The notes under the pieces: model-generated
Told to the model about the DNA's origin: nothing
What the model saw: the letters and a program-made list of their open reading frames with translations, nothing else
The model's database searches: none
Shown: positions 245-60,637 of the stretch, piece by piece
Layout: every line of letters starts with the position of its first letter
Numbering within the stretch: the stretch's first letter is position 1
Source of the DNA: Pratylenchus scribneri
Lineage: Eukaryota; Nematoda; Chromadorea; Rhabditida; Pratylenchidae
Reading direction: 5' to 3'
DNA length: 64,000 nucleotides
Assembly: GCA_030063045.1 (NCBI GenBank)
Contig: JAQSEB010000001.1
Span: 3,534,001-3,598,000, forward strand
Program-made: the position numbers and the translations under genes

Positions 245-3200
245 TTATTTTTTTGATTTCAAATTAAATGCGCAATTAACTTGGACTTTTATTTCTCTGT
301 GGAATTGACTGAATTGATAACAATTTAATTTGTTAAATATTCCAAACTCAAATTCCAACTTCGCCAAAATTTTCTCGTGTTTGATTGGCCGCCCCTCTGC
401 GCACTTCAGGCAATTCATTTCGTTCCATTCGTTCACGCATTGCATCCAATTGTTCAATGTCAACTTGTTCTGAAAATATTCCAAAATTAAATATTATTTT
501 AATTATAAATATTTAATTATTTTTCCCGAAAATTACTATTTATAAGAAGCGAAATGATGGCCGGCTCCAACATTTCGCGATGGAATTTGAAACGTCTAAG
601 CAAACTTTGTTGTTTATGATAATAGGATGTTTCCGTGAAAAATGCGAACAACGACAAAGAAATGCCAAGGACGAACAAGAAGAAAATGCCGAACATCGAG
701 GCAACATCTTTATTAATAAAATATCCAATTTTTAGTTAAAAAATTACCCAATGGCTTCAATTCAATTTGGTCATCCGCCGGCGCTAGGCCCGTCTTTTTG
801 CCGAACATTGTCAGTGAATGGCTATAAAATTTTGTATCAGAATTTGGGCTGAAAATTCTGGGGAAAATTTGATATTGAATTTTCCCTCAAGCGAAATTCA
901 CCCATTGCAATCTTCGGTGGGGCCATAGTCCAATTTGAAGCCATATTTCATATATTTTCGATATGTTCGACGGATGAAGTCACGGTTCATTACAATCGCT
1001 TTATTCTTTAAATATTAAAATTATTAAATTCAAATTTATTTACTTTAAGTAAAAAAATTAAATTTGTTTACTTTAAGTAAAAAAATTAAATTTATTTATT
1101 AATATTCAATTAAATAATTTTTATGGATTACCAAAGCTCTTGCAACTGTTGAATTTTTGGAGAACATAAAATGGGATGGCATCCGAGGCAATCCTTCACC
1201 AACTAAAGCCAAATTGCAGCGACGGCGAACATAAATCTGAAAAATATTTTTTTAAATGCTCAATTAATATACAGTAAATCCCCTAATAGTAGCCCTGGGC
1301 TACTGAATTTCAGAAACCTTCCAAAGGAAGCAAAAATTCAAATTTTACACCTTTTTCTCCTTAAAAATACGGTAGAGGGTACTATTAATAGAGGGGGGGG
1401 GGGGTTTATTATAGAGGATTTACAGTAATATAAAAATCACTCACCGCTGTCATACTATTCTCTTGGATTGGGAAAATATATCCTCCCTTTTCCACATAAT
1501 CAATTGCTTCCCAAATTGTGTTCGTTTCCACAATATTATTCCCAATGGCAGCCCGAAGCGATTTTTCATGGGATGTGTTCGCGTGTAATAATTCTTCAAA
1601 ATACCTGAAATAAATTGATTTATTTTGAATAAATTTTCATTAATTCCCAACCAATTTCCTTTGTAATTTGTGACAAATTGATATTTTCGATGGGCCACTA
1701 ATCGGATTAATTCGCCGCCATCAGCGAATGGACTGGGCGGCACCGGTTGAAGAAGGGAGGAAAGTAACAGAGTTTGATACATGTCCATGAGGAGACGGCA
1801 TTGCATTATTGTGAATACAAGCAAGGAAAAATTTCCTATAAAAATATTTCAATGATAAAACAATGGATTTTTGAAGAAAATTTGAATTATCGGTGCTAAT
1901 AAGTCAATTCCACAAAGATGCAAATATTAGTGCTTATTACACAAATGATACAAAAGAAATTCAAATACTATAAATTTCTGATCTAAATTTGAAAAGATTG
2001 AATTAAATGCTAAAATAATGAATTGAAACAGAAAATAAAAATTCAAATAAAAAGAAAAGGAAAATTTGTTTAGAAAAACAAATATTTAAAAAAAACAATG
2101 TTTGGTAAAATATAAAAAAAAATGTTTAGAAAAATATATAAAAAAATGTTTAGAAAAATATATAAAAAATGTTTAGAAAAATATATAAAAAAATGTTTAG
2201 AAAAATATATAAAAAATGTTTAGAAAAATATAAAAAAAATGTTTAGAAAAATATATAAAAAAATGTTTAGAAAAATATATAAAAAAATGTTTAGAAAAAT
2301 ATATAAAAAATGTTTAGAAAAATATATAAAAAAATGTTTAGAAAAATATATAAAAAATGTTTAGAAAAATATATAAAAAATGTTTAGAAAAATATATAAA
2401 AAATGTTTAGAAAAATATATAAAAAATGTTTAGAAAAATATAAAAAAAATGTTTAGAAAAATATATAAAAAAATGTTTAGAAAAATATATAAAAAATGTT
2501 TAGAAAAATATATAAAAAAATGTTTAGAAAAATATATAAAAAAATGTTTAGAAAAATATATAAAAAATGTTTAGAAAAATATATAAAAAAATGTTTAGAA
2601 AAATATATAAAAAATGTTTAGAAAAATATAAAAAAAATGTTTAGAAAAATATATAAAAAATGTTTAGAAAAATATATAAAAAATGTTTAGAAAAATATAA
2701 AAAAAATGTTTAGAAAAATATATAAAAAAATGTTTAGAAGAATATATAAAAAATGTTTAGAAAAATATATAAAAAAATGTTTAGAAAAATATATAAAAAA
2801 TGTTTAGAAAAATATATAAAAAAATGTTTAGAAAAATATATAAAAAAATGTTTAGAAAAATATATAAAAAAATGTTTAGAAAAATATATAAAAAATGTTT
2901 AGAAAAATATATAAAAAATGTTTAGAAAAATATATAAAAAAATGTTTAGAAAAATATATAAAAAAATGTTTAGAAAAATATATAAAAAAATGTTTAGAAA
3001 AACACAAAATAAGTTCTCGAATACAAATAAATTATTATTATAAAATTAAATCAAAAATTTATATTTGCATTGAATTTGCATAATTTTTGGAATCGCCCAC
3101 ATTTGCAATTTGCATTACCATTTGATTTTGTGTAATTGATCAAATTGGTATTTATCTTTTAAAAAAAATGGACTTACCTGCTGCGGTTGCAAAATCGAAT

Positions 3201-4271
3201 CTGTCCGGTTGATAAAGTTGAAGACGAACAAGTTTCCAAATAATCTAAAAATAATACAATTCAAATATTTAAATAATTTTTTTACCTGAAATTTCGTATA
3301 ATGACCCTCTTTTCGAAGGCCAATTTTAGTTTCCATAGTGGCCAACCAAATGCAATACAATGTTTGCAAAATGAGCATAATTCCCATCGCAATCCATGTG
3401 GAATTTCCATATGGACTGAATGTGTTCCACATTCGGCTTGAAAAGTCCATCACACGGCTATGCACCAAATAATATAATTGGGTCTAAATTTAAATAATTT
3501 AATTTAAATTAATATTTTTTTTGGAAAATTTTAAGAAAATATTTTTCTTTTTAAAATTTTTATTATTTATAAAATAAATTTAAATAAATATTTTTAAAAA
3601 TAAAAATAAATTTTTATATTTTATATTTTATATTTATTCGAAATTTTGAAAAAATAAATTTTACGCTTGTAAGTGGATAGCTGAATGTGAAATATTCGGC
3701 GCGCAATTTTGTTTGCTGAAAGAAGGCGCATACTGTATCGACAGTTCCATTTTGGATGAGCCCAAAAATGCCATCCCAACTGCCATTTACCTTTTAATGA
3801 ATATAATTATTTAATTAAAAATATGTAAATGCCCTCACAAAATTGCCCCAGTCCATTCGACCGGGCGCATTCCGGTGGATTACTGGCTCAATTCGTAAAT
3901 GCGCATATTCCGACAAATAGTTGATTATCTAATTTTATTCTATTTTAATTGTGTTCAAAATAAAATATTTAAATATTGAAATATTTTATATATAATATAT
4001 TTAATTATATATATCTCCCAAAAATTTATAAATATATTACAGTATTATTCGCTTCTAGGCTTCCGGCATATAGTTTAAATAAGAATACTTCGATAAAGTA
4101 TTTTATTTTGCCAACCTCAGCACACCACCCTGGGAATGGGCACGAAATTGTGGGATGCAATGTTGGAAATTTGCGGCATTCATCGAAAACTTCGGGCGGA
4201 TTATGAGCAAAAAGCACTCGAATTGTTTTGATGTGTTTTTCGGAGAAATCAATGTAAGGATTATTTTCCAT
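245..4271 (-). CDS. Ionotropic glutamate receptor-like subunit (divergent, nematode IR-like type)
   Basis: Probable ligand-gated cation channel of the neuronal or sensory membrane, about 570 residues in about 11 exons. In protein order: an S1 ligand-binding half (PTISCPFPGWCAE near 4150; GSWDGIFGLIQNGTVDTVC near 3760), where the Arg in QTKLRAEYFTFS aligns with the carboxylate-binding Arg of the family; M1 (WIAMGIMLILQTLYCIWLA, about 3380); a pore region (LFGNLFVFNF, about 3230); M3 (LLVFTIMQCRLLMDMYQTLL, about 1790); S2 (KGGYIFPIQENSMTA about 1460, then about 1130-1230 and 890-1000); M4 (MFGIFFLFVLGISLSLFAFF, about 680); and a cytoplasmic tail with stop at 245. No large amino-terminal domain is visible and the usual SYTANLAAF motif in M3 is absent. 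The ATG at 4271 lacks a clear upstream splice AG, so a signal-peptide exon further upstream may be missing. Most introns are 40-60 nt, but one of about 1.35 kb holds a minisatellite. Confidence 0.8.
1268..1427. mobile_element. Small inverted-repeat element (MITE-like) in an intron
   Basis: Imperfect terminal inverted repeats ACAGTAAATCCCCTAATA (about 1271) and its counterpart TATTATAGAGGATTTACAGT (about 1408-1427) enclose about 120 bp with a run of G at about 1393. It lies in the glutamate-receptor-like gene between the exon ending near 1240 and the one starting near 1440. Target duplication unclear; no coding capacity. Confidence 0.5.
2095..3003. repeat. Intronic minisatellite, about 23-25 bp unit
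   Basis: About 37 tandem copies of a unit close to ATGTTTAGAAAAATATATAA plus three to five A. Copies differ almost only in A-run length and in ATATATA versus ATATA. The array fills most of the intron between about 1830 and 3176 of the glutamate-receptor-like gene. Open frames across it are products of the repeat and not genes. Confidence 0.95.
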
Positions 4272-24887: not shown

Positions 24888-25808
24888 CAAAAGGTGGAAT
24901 TAAAATAGGCGGAATTATTCTAAGTAAAACAGTTGGAATTATTCTAAGCAAAAAAGGCGGAATTATTATAACTAACCAGGCGGAATTATTCTAAGCAAAA
25001 AAGGCGGAATTATTATAACTAACCAGGCGGAATTATTCTAAGTAAAACAGGCGGAATTATTATAACTAACCAGGCGGAATTATTCTAAGTAAAACAGGCG
25101 GAATTATTCTAAGCAAAACAGGCGGAATTATTCTAAGTAAAACAGGCGGAATTATTCTAAGCAAAACAGGCGGAATTATTCTAAGTCAAACAGGCGGAAT
25201 TATTCTAAGTTAACCAGGCGGAATTATTCTAAGTTGACCAGGCGGAATTATTCTAAGTTAACCAGGCGGAATTATTCTAAGTTGATCAGGCGGAATTATT
25301 CTAAGTTAACCAGGCTGAATTATTCTAAGTTAACCAGGCGGAATTATTCTAAGTAAAACAGGCGGAATTATTCTAAGTTAACCAGGCGGAATTATTCTAA
25401 GTTGACCAGGCGGAATTATTCTAAGTTGACCAGGCGGAATTATTCTAAGTTAACCAGGCGGAATTATTCTAAGTTGACCAGGCTGAATTATTCTAAGTCA
25501 AACAGGCGGAATTATTCTAAGTCAAACAGGCGGAATTATTCTAAGCAAAACAGGCGGAATTATTCTAAGTCAAACAGGCGGAATTATTCTAAGTCAAACA
25601 GGCGGAATTATTCTAAGCAAAACAGGCGGAATTATTCTAAGTAAAAAAGGCGGAGTTATTCTTAGCAAAACAGGCGGAATTATTCTAAGCAAAAAAGGCG
25701 GAATTATTCCAAGCAAAACAGGCGGAATTATTCTAAGCAAAACAGGCGGAATTATTCTAAGCAAAAAAGGCGGAATTAAAAAAGGTGGAATTATTCTTAA
25801 AAAGTGGA
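24888..25808. repeat. Minisatellite, 24-bp unit
   Basis: About 36 tandem copies of a 24-mer beginning GGCGGAATTATTCTAAG and ending in variable AAAACA, TTAACCA, TTGACCA, TCAAACA or CAAAACA. The unit length is a multiple of three, so a repetitive 80-codon frame (NYSK.NRR) runs through it by chance; there is no splice or start context for a gene. Confidence 0.95.
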
Positions 25809-55912: not shown

Positions 55913-58900
55913 ATGTCCGGTCTTGACGACAATCCATTTGCCGATCCATTCAAGGTTCGCAATAAAGGGAATTTTGTCCATAAAGAATGTCGTAATGGGT
56001 TGTATAAAATTCGAAACAATTTGCTACGGTCAATTTTGGCCTAATAATTTGATCACTTGAAAGACAATTTATTTATTTATATAAATAGCTGAAAAGCAGC
56101 TATTTAAATTAAAATATATCCCATATTTGGCCTCAAGATTGGGGATAAAATTGATGCTTTGGATTAGACTTGGTTGTCAAGACTAGGAATAGTAAAATAG
56201 CTAAATACATAGGCTAAGCTTTCAGTGATCCATCCAAACATGTGTCCAAAATGCATTAAAATTTCCAAACAATACATTGTTTTCCACATATTTGTTTCAT
56301 TTTTACGGAATGAGCTTATTAGTTTAATTTAAATGGCACTTTTGACCAAATGCCCAAAATTAGTAATTTTTCAACAACTAGTAGACAAGACCAACACTAT
56401 GGAGTATAAACATTAAAAGAAGATAATATATATTAGGCTAATTAATTAAAATAAGGGGATTAATCTAGTTCAATAGCTGGCCTATATTTTTATTTAAATT
56501 ACAAAAATGTTACTCTATTCTATTACATATACCGTAGTTTCAGTGAGTTGTCTAAAAAGCTTATTATTATTAGTCCCATTCAGTCTTTTAGCCTAGACTG
56601 AATTGTTTAAACATATTCCTTGTCACCATGAAAAGTTAAATAAAATTATATCAAAATTCAAAATTAATAGTTAATCATTTTTTTGATTCCAATATCAAAA
56701 AATTTTGTCGAATGGATCAAAGCACAAATATAATTTCGTTTTCTAAATTCAGGATCCAGCTGTTCAACGTGCCGCAAGACCATCGCCGGCGGAGGAGGCA
56801 AATCCGATCAAAATGGGTGGCGGCATTCAACCACCACCGCCCCAACAACATTCGCCAAAAACCGGCTATGGGGGCACTTCGCAAACTCCGCCTAGACCGG
56901 TTAATTTTTTAATTCAATATGGGCATATAAATTGGAAATAAATTTGGCAATTTTTATCGAAAAATATAATTTAAATTCCTCATTTTTAATATTTGCGCGT
57001 TCCATGGAAAAATTTTTTAAAACTTTTCAATCAAACCATGTTTTTCTAGTTTAACATTTAAAGTATATATTTGTAACTGAGATTTCAGTATTTAAAAAGA
57101 GTTTTCCAACAAACTAATCCAAAATCATCACTGGTTTTACAAGTTTAATTAATCCTTGTAATGGTAGTTTTATTGTTTGGGTTCTCACTTTTTTTAGAAT
57201 TTGAAGGGTTTATGGTCCCCCCCCCCCCCCCCCCCCCATGGGTCTTCAGGATTAGAGTTAGACGTTAGAGTCATTCGGGTTCGAGTATAGATTATGGATA
57301 TGTGGTAAAAATGATCTCAGATATACCATATCCCTAACAACCGAAGGGGGACACTTCACTTTCATCCTTCTCATGAAAAAAGGATGTAAACTCCAGAAAT
57401 ACCCCTGTAATTTAATAAATAGCCTAAACCAGTTTAGATAAAATATAGGTATCTTAAATAAACCATTTTCAGTGAACCCGCAACCACCCTCATTCATTAT
57501 TCCTTTTTTCTACTTTCTATTCCTGGATTTTGAATCATTAGATAAATTTGAAAAATTCCCCATTCTTCTTTGCAATTTGCATACTTGCTTTTTTCACGTT
57601 CAGTCCTTTATTCCAAGCATTCCTTTTTTACATATCGATTTTTCGTATGCATATTCCGTTACTAACTCACGTCCTTCCCCCGCCAATGCCAATGCTTCTC
57701 GTTTTTTTCCATGGCCACAGTCCGCCGCATAGGCCAACTATTTTTCCCATTCCTCTATAATGGTTAAGAAGTGCCAATGCCGTCCGTAGCCCCTTAGTCC
57801 CAATTCTCAAAGCGGATGCCAATATTTGGTCACCGTTTTCGATGTCCTCTTTTGCTATTTCTATTTCTGCTCTTATATATACTCCTCTACTGAATAAAAA
57901 TTATATAACTATTAAGTATTCATGCTAACGGAAATTTTTAATGTTACTTTTTTTCCAATATGCAAAAATGTAGGAGAGGGAGCGGATTTTAGGTCGCAAA
58001 AATCGCAAAATAGGTGCCTATGCCTATTTAGATTTTTTTCGGGAAATTTGCCAAAAATAGGTCTTAAAAAACCTAAAATTGGTAATTTTTGGCTTTTTAT
58101 TGAATTTTTAACATGAAATTTTCCTTTAAAAAGTGAAAAATTGGTAAAAAAATAGGTCACAATTTTGTAAAAAAAGCATGAAATAAATGAACAAAAAAAG
58201 CATTTATGTGTTTTTCTCATCAAATCTGATGAAAACAAAAAAAGGTCAAAACCTAAAAATCCGCTCCATGTAGAACTGCCTAAAAAGTAGATATTTTTTA
58301 AATTTTTTCAGAAATTTTTTTATTTAGATAATTCATCCCATTTCTTTTCTTTTTAATATTCAATTCCCACTTTTTAAGATTGTCTTGTCTCATAAAAAAT
58401 AATTTAAAAATTTTAGAAATTTTTAATTCCAAATATTTGATCGAATTTATAAATTATCAAATCATCTTTAATTTCTCTTTTATTATATTATAAAATGGTG
58501 AGTAAATTTTTATTTTGAAAATTAACTATGGGGTGCAAAAAATCGTTTTGTTAAGTTATAATTTCCTCAAATATTTCTACTAAACAGGTTCAAACCGCTG
58601 TGCCAATGAATGAGGACGAATTATTCCGCCAACAAGAGGAGTTGCGCAGACGAGAACAGGTAAAATAACATTTTAATAATTTATAAATAAAATAAAATTT
58701 ATTTATTTAAAATTAACAAATAAATTATTTAGGAATTGCTTCAACGCCAGCAAGAATTTCAACGGCAACAAATGGGCGGTGGCGGAGTTGGAGGCCCGGC
58801 TCAACGACCGCCACATAATTGGCCACCACTTCCACAATTCATTCCGTTGCAGCAGGGTTGCCAGAATGTCCCCCCACGGGGGGCATTTGCCCCCTTTTTG

Positions 58901-60637
58901 AGATTTTGCCCCCTTTTGTGCCCCCCGAGCCGAGTTGCCCCCCAAATGCCCCCTTTTTAAAATTTTGTCATTTTTTCCCTTTTTTATTATTTTTTGGTCT
59001 AATTTTTCGCTGCGCGGCAAATTTTTGGTCTAATTTTTCGCTGCGCGGCAAATTTTTGGTCTAATTTTTCGCTACGCGGAAAATTTTTGGTCTAGTTTTT
59101 CGCTGCGCGGCCATTATTGGAAAAATTTTTGCATTTTTGGCACTTTTTAAAAATGCCCCCCAAAATGCCCCCTTTTTTACTGAAAATGCCCCCCAAATGC
59201 CCCCTTTTTTTTCCAAAATGCCCCCCAAAGTAAAAATCCATCTGGCAACCCTGCGTTGCAGCCTTGTTTCTACCAGGACATTGATGTGGAAATACCCGTT
59301 CAATTTCAGGTTGAATTTTTATAATTTTTTTTTTAAAATTAGATACTTATTACGCTTGGGATAAGATTTTTTGTCTCACTTTTCGGTTCTTTTTGGCCTC
59401 TAATTAGATGCTAAAAAGACCTCCCGGTAGTCTAGTTGGTGTCACACATTTTTGCCAAAAAAAAATTTAATTCTATTTTCCGCTAAAAACATGTTTTTAG
59501 GGGTTTTGGATGATGGGGAATCCGATTTTGGAAATTATTTTTCATGAATTAAATTTCCTGAACCATTATAGGTACAGGTTTATAAACCGGTTTCGAAAAA
59601 ATTGAACTTTGGTAATTTAGGTCATATAATACATCATTCGACGCGTATCGATATGCTGATCACGAATCTGCTATTTGTTATAAAAACCCAAAAACTAAAA
59701 AAATTATAATTAAACAAATCATTAAATAAAATAATCCAAATTTTAAATAAATTCATTCATTTAATTAGGAAACCGTTCGCCTTGTCTACTATGTCTATTT
59801 GGTTTATGTACTCGCTTCGGTGGCCAATGTTTTTGGGGCCTTTTTTTATTTGATGGCCGACGGTACCATTGGTCTTTTGCTTTTGGCCATAATCCAGCTG
59901 GTTATTTTCACTCCGTGCGCATTCCTCTTTTGGTTCCGTCCTGTCTATAAGGCATTCCGGTGGGCAAATTAATTTTATAAATTGAAGAAAATTAAAATAT
60001 TAATTTTTTTCAGCGATGATTCCTCCTTCAATTTTATGATGTTTTTCCTGGTTTTATTTTTCCACACAATTTTTTGCATGGTCCAAATGCTTGGCCTCAA
60101 CTATGCAATGTGAAAAATAAATTAAAATAATTAATTAAAAATGCTTAAAAATTATTTTTTATTTATTTCCAGTGGCTGGACAGTCACATTACATGTGTTC
60201 GGCACTCATTGGTTCATTGCCCTCATTATGCTTATCCCAACGTTGGGCTTCACAGCCGCCTTCATTGGCATGGTGTTTTCATTGATTAAGGTGAAAAAAT
60301 TATTTTTATTAAATATTTAAAATTATTAAAAAAATTTTTATCTAAAGGTCCATCAATTCTATCGGGGTGCCGGATTCAGTTTGGACAAAGCTCGTCAAGA
60401 ATTCAGCAATGGGGTAATGGCGGACAGGAATGTGCAGAATGTGAGTGGCAAAATAATTTAAATTAAATTAAATTAATTTGAATTATAACTAGAAATTACA
60501 CAAAAATTCAAATATTCTAATAAATTAAATCATTTATAAAATTTCAATAAAATTATTAATTATTTTAGGCCGCCAATCACGCTGCCCGTGCCGCCGCCAA
60601 TCATGCAGTGAATGAAATGGTCAGTGGACGATATTAA
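55913..60637 (+). CDS. Secretory carrier-associated membrane protein (SCAMP)
   Basis: Post-Golgi and endosomal trafficking protein, about 330 residues in about ten exons. It starts MSGLDDNPFADPF, the NPF-type EH-domain ligand of the family; a Pro/Gln-rich linker follows (56753-56900), then a coiled coil (MNEDELFRQQEELRRREQ at about 58605; ELLQRQQEFQRQQ at 58733). NWPPLPQFIPLQ is separated by an inserted element from PCFYQDIDVEIPVQFQ (59262-59309), the conserved pre-membrane E-peptide. Four membrane segments come next: LVYYVYLVYVLASVANVFGA, IGLLLLAIIQLVIFTPCAFL, FNFMMFFLVLFFHTIFCMVQ and HWFIALIMLIPTLGFTAAFI. The tail is HQFYRGAGFSLDKARQEF and ends VSGRY at 60637. Unless the 401-bp element at 58853 is spliced out, the frame stops at about 58957 and the membrane domain is lost. 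Two long introns (about 55955-56752 and 56903-58588) carry repeats. Confidence 0.9.
57205..57385. repeat. Dispersed repeat E, copy 2, with a C20 run
   Basis: A run of about 20 C (57218-57237), then CATGGGTCTTCAGGATTAGA, and later CGAAGGGGGACACTTCACTT and TCTCATGAAAAAAGGATGTA. Parallel to 34290-34460. In a SCAMP intron. Confidence 0.55.
57977..58267. mobile_element. MITE-like element in a SCAMP intron
   Basis: GGAGCGGATTTTAGGT at 57979 and ACCTAAAAATCCGCTCC ending 58267 are inverted copies. ATGTAGGA before and ATGTAGAA after suggest an imperfect 8-bp target duplication, though three bases separate the left copy from the arm. The interior is AT-rich with several AGGTC/AGGTG and CCTAAA motifs. 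Non-coding. Confidence 0.6.
58853..59253. mobile_element. hAT-type MITE inserted in a SCAMP coding exon
   Basis: Terminal inverted repeats CAGGGTTGCCAGA (58853) and TCTGGCAACCCTG (ending 59253) are perfect over 13 bp. The target 8-mer CGTTGCAG is directly repeated on both sides (58845-58852 and 59254-59261). Inside, TGCCCCCC(A)AATGCCCCCTTTT blocks occur in both halves and a roughly 31-bp unit (TTTTTGGTCTAATTTTTCGC + TGCGCGGCAAA) recurs about four times at 58992-59112. Non-coding. Together with the duplicated target it adds 409 bp, which is not a multiple of three. Confidence 0.92.
59310..59768. other. SCAMP intron with AAACCGGTTT-type sequence
   Basis: Contains ATAAACCGGTTTCG near 59581, like the composite repeat at 15-19 kb, but no full copy. 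Otherwise unremarkable intron DNA. Confidence 0.4.

Follow-up and report, generated by a model that had tools for sequence, protein, structure and literature searches.

The window analyzed here is a stretch of 64,000 bases from the nematode Pratylenchus scribneri (G000:C1:3534001-3598000; positions are counted from its first base), drawn from a searched genome of 227,248,964 bases in 276 contigs. It contains a SCAMP gene in which one exon is interrupted by a 401-bp insertion with the features of a hAT-type miniature inverted-repeat transposable element (MITE). The gene, which like its exons and the parts of the insertion is given on the plus strand, spans 55913..60637. An N-terminal exon (MSGLDDNPFADPFK) lies at 55913-55954 and a further one at about 56753-56899, and a 3-nt ATG exon at 58495 is therefore doubtful. 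In the numbering of this analysis, exon 2 occupies 58588..58659, and the native donor that directly follows it, at 58660, is strong. Comparison with a second SCAMP copy, on contig C2, divides exon 3 into an upstream part of 120 nt (58733..58852) and a downstream part of 48 nt (59262..59309; PCFYQDIDVEIPVQFQ), giving 168 nt with both borders between codons; the insertion lengthens this exon to 577 nt. Skipping of exon 3 would, therefore, preserve the reading frame and every membrane segment. Exon 4 (59769..59959) holds the motif WFRPVYKAFR, which we take to be the SCAMP E peptide. An earlier note on this DNA had assigned the insertion to the E-peptide exon, but that motif sits in the next exon (59769-59959). 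Among the best 120 of 533 matches to the intact SCAMP in a protein search, the nearest protein with a species name was a Meloidogyne SCAMP at 73% identity, two other proteins being closer at 80% and 77%; as none of these 120 exceeded 80% identity, a protein of P. scribneri itself was not seen among them.

The inserted element (58853..59253) begins with a 13-bp terminal inverted repeat, CAGGGTTGCCAGA (58853..58865), and ends with TCTGGCAACCCTG (59241..59253), the two being perfectly complementary over all 13 bp. It is flanked by two copies of an 8-bp target duplication, CGTTGCAG, at 58845..58852 and 59254..59261, and carries a 31-bp internal repeat of four units at 58991..59114. The insertion point falls between codons, with FIPLQ before and PCFYQD after it, and inside a block that is free of gaps in all nine aligned SCAMPs. 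Reading through the element, the frame of the interrupted copy stops at 58958. The size, perfect ends, perfect duplication and codon split reported in the earlier note were thus all reproduced, and its read-through frame does end inside the element, although at this position rather than at about 58957. Relative to the majority sequence of nine close copies, the element in SCAMP has 2 differences, indicating that the insertion is young; two of the copies match the majority exactly.

The ends of the element were found to be widespread. The 13-mer end has 254 exact copies in the genome, which would correspond to roughly 125 elements, versus none for a reversed control, indicating that the inverted-end motif is not due to chance. 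At least 50 genome matches to the element family were obtained (40 of 672 candidates were scored), and the 33 full-length copies most similar to the SCAMP element were examined. All 33 had perfect 8-bp target duplications with no mismatch. Family copies of about 370, 401, 432, 463 and 494 bp were present, the length steps corresponding to the 31-bp internal repeat. A longer relative of 3,007 bp (L063; G000:C40:739495-742501) has the same ends as the MITE and its own 8-bp duplication, GTCAAAAT; identity with the MITE is 100% over 110 bp at one terminus, and the opposite terminus has its first 79 bp in common. This relative matches the hAT dimerization domain PF05699 (Dimer_Tnp_hAT) with an E value of 9.3e-5 and 22.6 bits against a cut-off of 21.4, while five of its six open stretches scanned had no match above cut-off. 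Matches to PF05699 numbered at least 150 across the genome (150 of 373 candidates scored). CAGGG-type ends are typical of hAT elements. Due to the perfect 8-bp duplications and the ends shared with a relative that matches a hAT domain, the element is, on its sequence features, a hAT MITE, and the family is young. At 401 bp and with 254 exact end motifs it is both short and multi-copy, as the MITE label implies. It resembles known hAT MITEs in its 8-bp duplication, in its short inverted ends beginning with CAGGG and in having ends in common with a hAT-domain element, and no important difference was seen; the element described here has a 31-bp internal tandem repeat of variable number.

Other arrangements of the same ends were also observed. 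A second 3,007-bp pair of these inverted ends is located at G000:C26:37578-40584. Partial left and right copies of the element adjoin at G000:C145:1056771-1057326 and similarly on C31, C71, C137, C141 and C1, which suggests composite or internally expanded derivatives.

The second SCAMP copy (C2:2163293-2164954) is uninterrupted, has an intact frame and contains a single CGTTGCAG between ATTC and CCTTGT. As this is an exact empty site, the insertion arose in the C1 lineage and duplicated its target. The C1 window and the C2 region are colinear over 42,621 aligned positions at 90.3% identity. A profile search of the genome detected SCAMP matches on C1 (one) and C2 (three) only. In exon 4, the C1 copy has a deletion of one codon, the residue of which is present in C2 and in eight other nematode SCAMPs. 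The relationship between the contigs may be either that of diverged haplotypes or that of a duplicated genome; the description of the draft genome (PMC10138993) gives a diploid k-mer profile and, following purging, a BUSCO duplication of 41.4%, and it mentions RNA-seq data, described there as unpublished, that served for annotation. The claim of a recent hAT-type MITE insertion is upheld by this empty site together with the 33 of 33 perfect duplications and the same-ended relative with its hAT domain match. Colinearity of the whole window (1-64000) with C2 is repeatedly interrupted by unmatched stretches, an observation consistent with much turnover after separation.

The family was then surveyed for other copies within exons, as the earlier note had proposed, and one more supported case was found among the 33 copies examined. 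A 370-bp copy (L032:1464-1833; G000:C95:135963-136332) interrupts an exon encoding a GOST_TM domain (PF06814; E value, 1.1e-5), the one match in a Pfam scan of seven candidate exon peptides. The corresponding 62-residue exon is uninterrupted, at 98 to 100% identity, at four loci, on C25, C231, C48 and C198. As both supported exonic insertions have uninterrupted gene copies elsewhere, the sequences point to tolerance of such insertions through redundancy, two cases being few. Some 600 bases upstream of the copy interrupting GOST_TM there is one more member of the family (L032:2440-2840). Only the SCAMP and GOST_TM sites, which have homology support, were used in these comparisons. Exon-likeness, scored by a small gene model that had the C1/C2 comparison as its training data, and with only ~300-bp flanks available for 11 of the 33 sites, separated sites poorly: SCAMP ranked first and 24 sites fell below the median of 840 random positions, yet random positions of the same loci reached 54.7 at the 90th percentile, versus 39.7 for SCAMP. 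An open-frame scan of 22 copies was uninformative, the longest frame at SCAMP being the wrong one. Another copy, in L030, borders a coding-looking stretch (L030:2546-2728), and the paralogous matches to this stretch end 6 bases short of the copy. These three matches, at 74 to 77%, are on C146, C4 and C184.

The locus is probably best explained by an ordinary, recent and disruptive hAT MITE insertion into one of two SCAMP copies, the other of which remains intact on C2. The 401-bp MITE inserted recently at CGTTGCAG within exon 3 of the C1 copy, presumably moved by a hAT transposase that a longer relative still present in the genome probably provided. The native introns flanking exon 3 would still be recognized, such that most transcripts would retain the element, meet the stop at 58958 and be either degraded or translated into a truncated cytosolic fragment. 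With SCAMP supplied by the intact C2 copy, the C1 insertion would be tolerated as a null or hypomorphic copy; the interrupted copy need not work, as an intact second copy exists. The native sites flanking exon 3 score above the proposed new ones, and if the interrupted copy yields anything useful, in-frame skipping of exon 3 is a likelier source than excision of the element. The expectation that all membrane segments are lost from every transcript was, therefore, too strong, as skipping would keep them.

The earlier note had proposed that the element became an intron, with the spliceosome excising 58868-59261 or 58934-59261 and yielding a SCAMP in which PCFYQDI is preceded by an additional 5 or 27 residues. 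The two donors, at 58868..58869 (AAT/GTCCCC) and 58934..58935 (CGA/GTTGCC), are both weak, as is the proposed 3' splice site, the final AG of the right target copy. Splice sites were scored by leave-one-out against 67 native introns, of which 61 were from eight hand-chosen high-scoring gene models and 6 were from SCAMP. The donors scored -4.19 and -3.65, each at or above only 1 of the 67 native donors and above 28 and 45, respectively, of 181 exonic decoy GTs. The acceptor at 59261 was at or above only 2 of the 67 native acceptors, and 77 of 157 decoy AGs scored lower. An earlier set of 94 predicted introns gave milder placements, at the 2nd and 10th percentiles, but was contaminated by inclusion of the tested junction and by overlapping predictions on both strands. 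The composition of the candidate intron is also atypical, with 44% GC in the element versus 5 to 27% in six native SCAMP introns and 5 T residues in the 20 nt before the candidate AG versus 8 to 14. In every copy the right target duplication sits just behind the GC-rich inverted end, and the family is thus poorly placed to supply the T-rich run of native acceptors.

The frame-restoring arrangement itself is not rare. When the element was placed at 794 coding positions of the C2 SCAMP, with donors taken from its leading 150 bases and the acceptor from any AG of the right target copy, a stop-free GT..AG restoring the frame arose by chance at 165 positions on the same strand and at 90 on the other (11 to 21%). 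Target copies ending in AG were found in 3 of the 33 full copies examined, and an AG-ending target was thereby ruled out as a feature of the family. The consistent, usable splice sites of introners are likewise not seen in these scores, the sites being in the lowest 1 or 2 of 67 and AG endings in 3 of 33. Furthermore, the extra residues would disrupt the block that is gap free in nine of nine SCAMPs. An intron is, therefore, feasible by frame but not supported by the sequence, given the weak sites, the frequency of the arrangement by chance, the few AG endings and the intact second copy. Removal of this MITE as a brand-new intron, its acceptor made by the target duplication and the empty form of the gene still in the genome, is accordingly quite improbable as judged from these features.

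Several observations nevertheless weigh against a simple disruption. As the earlier note had stated, both junctions, 58867/59262 and 58933/59262, restore the frame without stops, adding 5 or 27 residues; a further frame-restoring donor to 59261 is present in the upstream exon at 58787. The two-genome gene model, which was forced to take some GT..AG at the insertion, selected 58786/59262 in its first pass and 58867/59262 in its last. The predicted RNA fold of the element pairs both of its ends (z, -4.15; none of 100 shuffles was as stable), and such pairing could bring donor and acceptor close together. Between the C1 and C2 copies, dN was 0.016 and dS was 0.090 (10 nonsynonymous and 15 synonymous changes in 269 codons, N-terminal exons excluded); both copies were under constraint until recently, so that the C1 copy was constrained before the insertion. 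Its exons contain no stop or frameshift besides the element, but this open frame says little, since decay would not be expected so soon after the insertion. For the C95 copy, too, an in-frame intron could be formed from the same donor and an AG of the right target duplication, but this acceptor scores -6.4. That both exonic copies are bridgeable is a mild coincidence (0.21 squared, or ~0.04, under the chance test) and a caveat. For excision of the element as an intron, the restored frames, the predicted end pairing and the last pass of the gene model are points in favor; against these stand the donor and acceptor scores near the bottom of the native range, the GC-rich, T-poor sequence before the AG, the chance frequencies, the scarcity of AG-ending duplications and the gap-free block, and we regard this outcome as doubtful.

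Partial rescue by native sites, although unlikely, has a somewhat better claim. Exon 3 could be skipped altogether (58660 to 59768). Alternatively, the donor of exon 2 could be joined to an AG at 59261 or 59276. The products of these routes, shorter by 56, 40 or 45 residues, respectively, would retain the reading frame and every membrane segment. The codon-bounded length of exon 3 and its lengthening by the insertion are in line with such use, and no native donor outscores that of exon 2. The summed scores for the three routes, 4.78, 1.93 and 3.14, compare with about -3.9 for the proposed introns, all of these being from the contaminated 94-intron model. However, the native 73-nt intron before exon 3 has strong sites (sum, 6.95) and would normally be removed first, and skipping would drop PCFYQDIDVEIP, a segment with 11 of 12 residues invariant across the nine aligned SCAMPs. 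The element could also represent a rare or mosaic allele of the pooled worms, or an assembly artifact, with little bearing on the normal gene. According to PMC10138993, 500 nematodes were pooled for the assembly and haplotigs were purged, but the precise ends, the target duplication and the C1-specific flanks on a 5.3-Mb contig indicate a real insertion, and such an origin is very improbable. A disruptive insertion beside an intact partner, therefore, remains the favored explanation.

Insertions of this kind have precedents outside nematodes. Maize Ds and Ds1 insertions in exons are reportedly spliced as introns, as is said to have been shown in RNA by Dennis in 1988, Wessler in 1991 and Giroux in 1994, and these cases lend some weight to intron gain. 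The present element is like Ds1 in being an exonic hAT element of ~400 bp, with possible donors located in its end and a potential acceptor within or beside the duplicated target; it differs in that splicing of Ds was reportedly shown in RNA, whereas the element here has weak sites and is known from sequence. Introners, some of which have also been reported to behave as introns, have the structure of DNA transposons in many families, and some carry one splice site and recruit the other from the target copy, as described by Gozashti et al. in 2022 (PMC9860276). That paper also describes a family in Aureococcus, again with an 8-bp duplication, in which both splice sites come with the element and four codons are added. 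The proposed SCAMP intron would share with introners the DNA-transposon structure and the combination of one carried and one recruited site, but introners recur as introns in many genes, while here two supported exonic copies were found among 33. Intron gains in nematodes, and the failure to trace their source sequences, are discussed in PMC9169325. No hAT intron gain in a nematode was found in the literature searched, a coverage outside which most subscription papers fall.

Two features elsewhere in the window were also recorded. A tandem-repeat-like stretch at 24898-25797 aligns to C2 in numerous registers and does so again some 56 kb off, the offsets in the compared C2 sequence being close to 18.2 kb and 75 kb. 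Positions 2001-4000 are unusually AT rich (18% GC), with positive GC skew and AT skew.

If RNA were to demonstrate splicing of the element, the locus would represent a directly observed birth of an intron in an animal; by analogy with the systems above, the mechanism of intron gain by insertion would not itself be new. As it stands, the locus provides a clean and recent exonic transposon insertion whose empty site is kept in a second copy of the gene, and it should be useful for following how gene-breaking insertions are tolerated in a nematode genome rich in duplicated genes.

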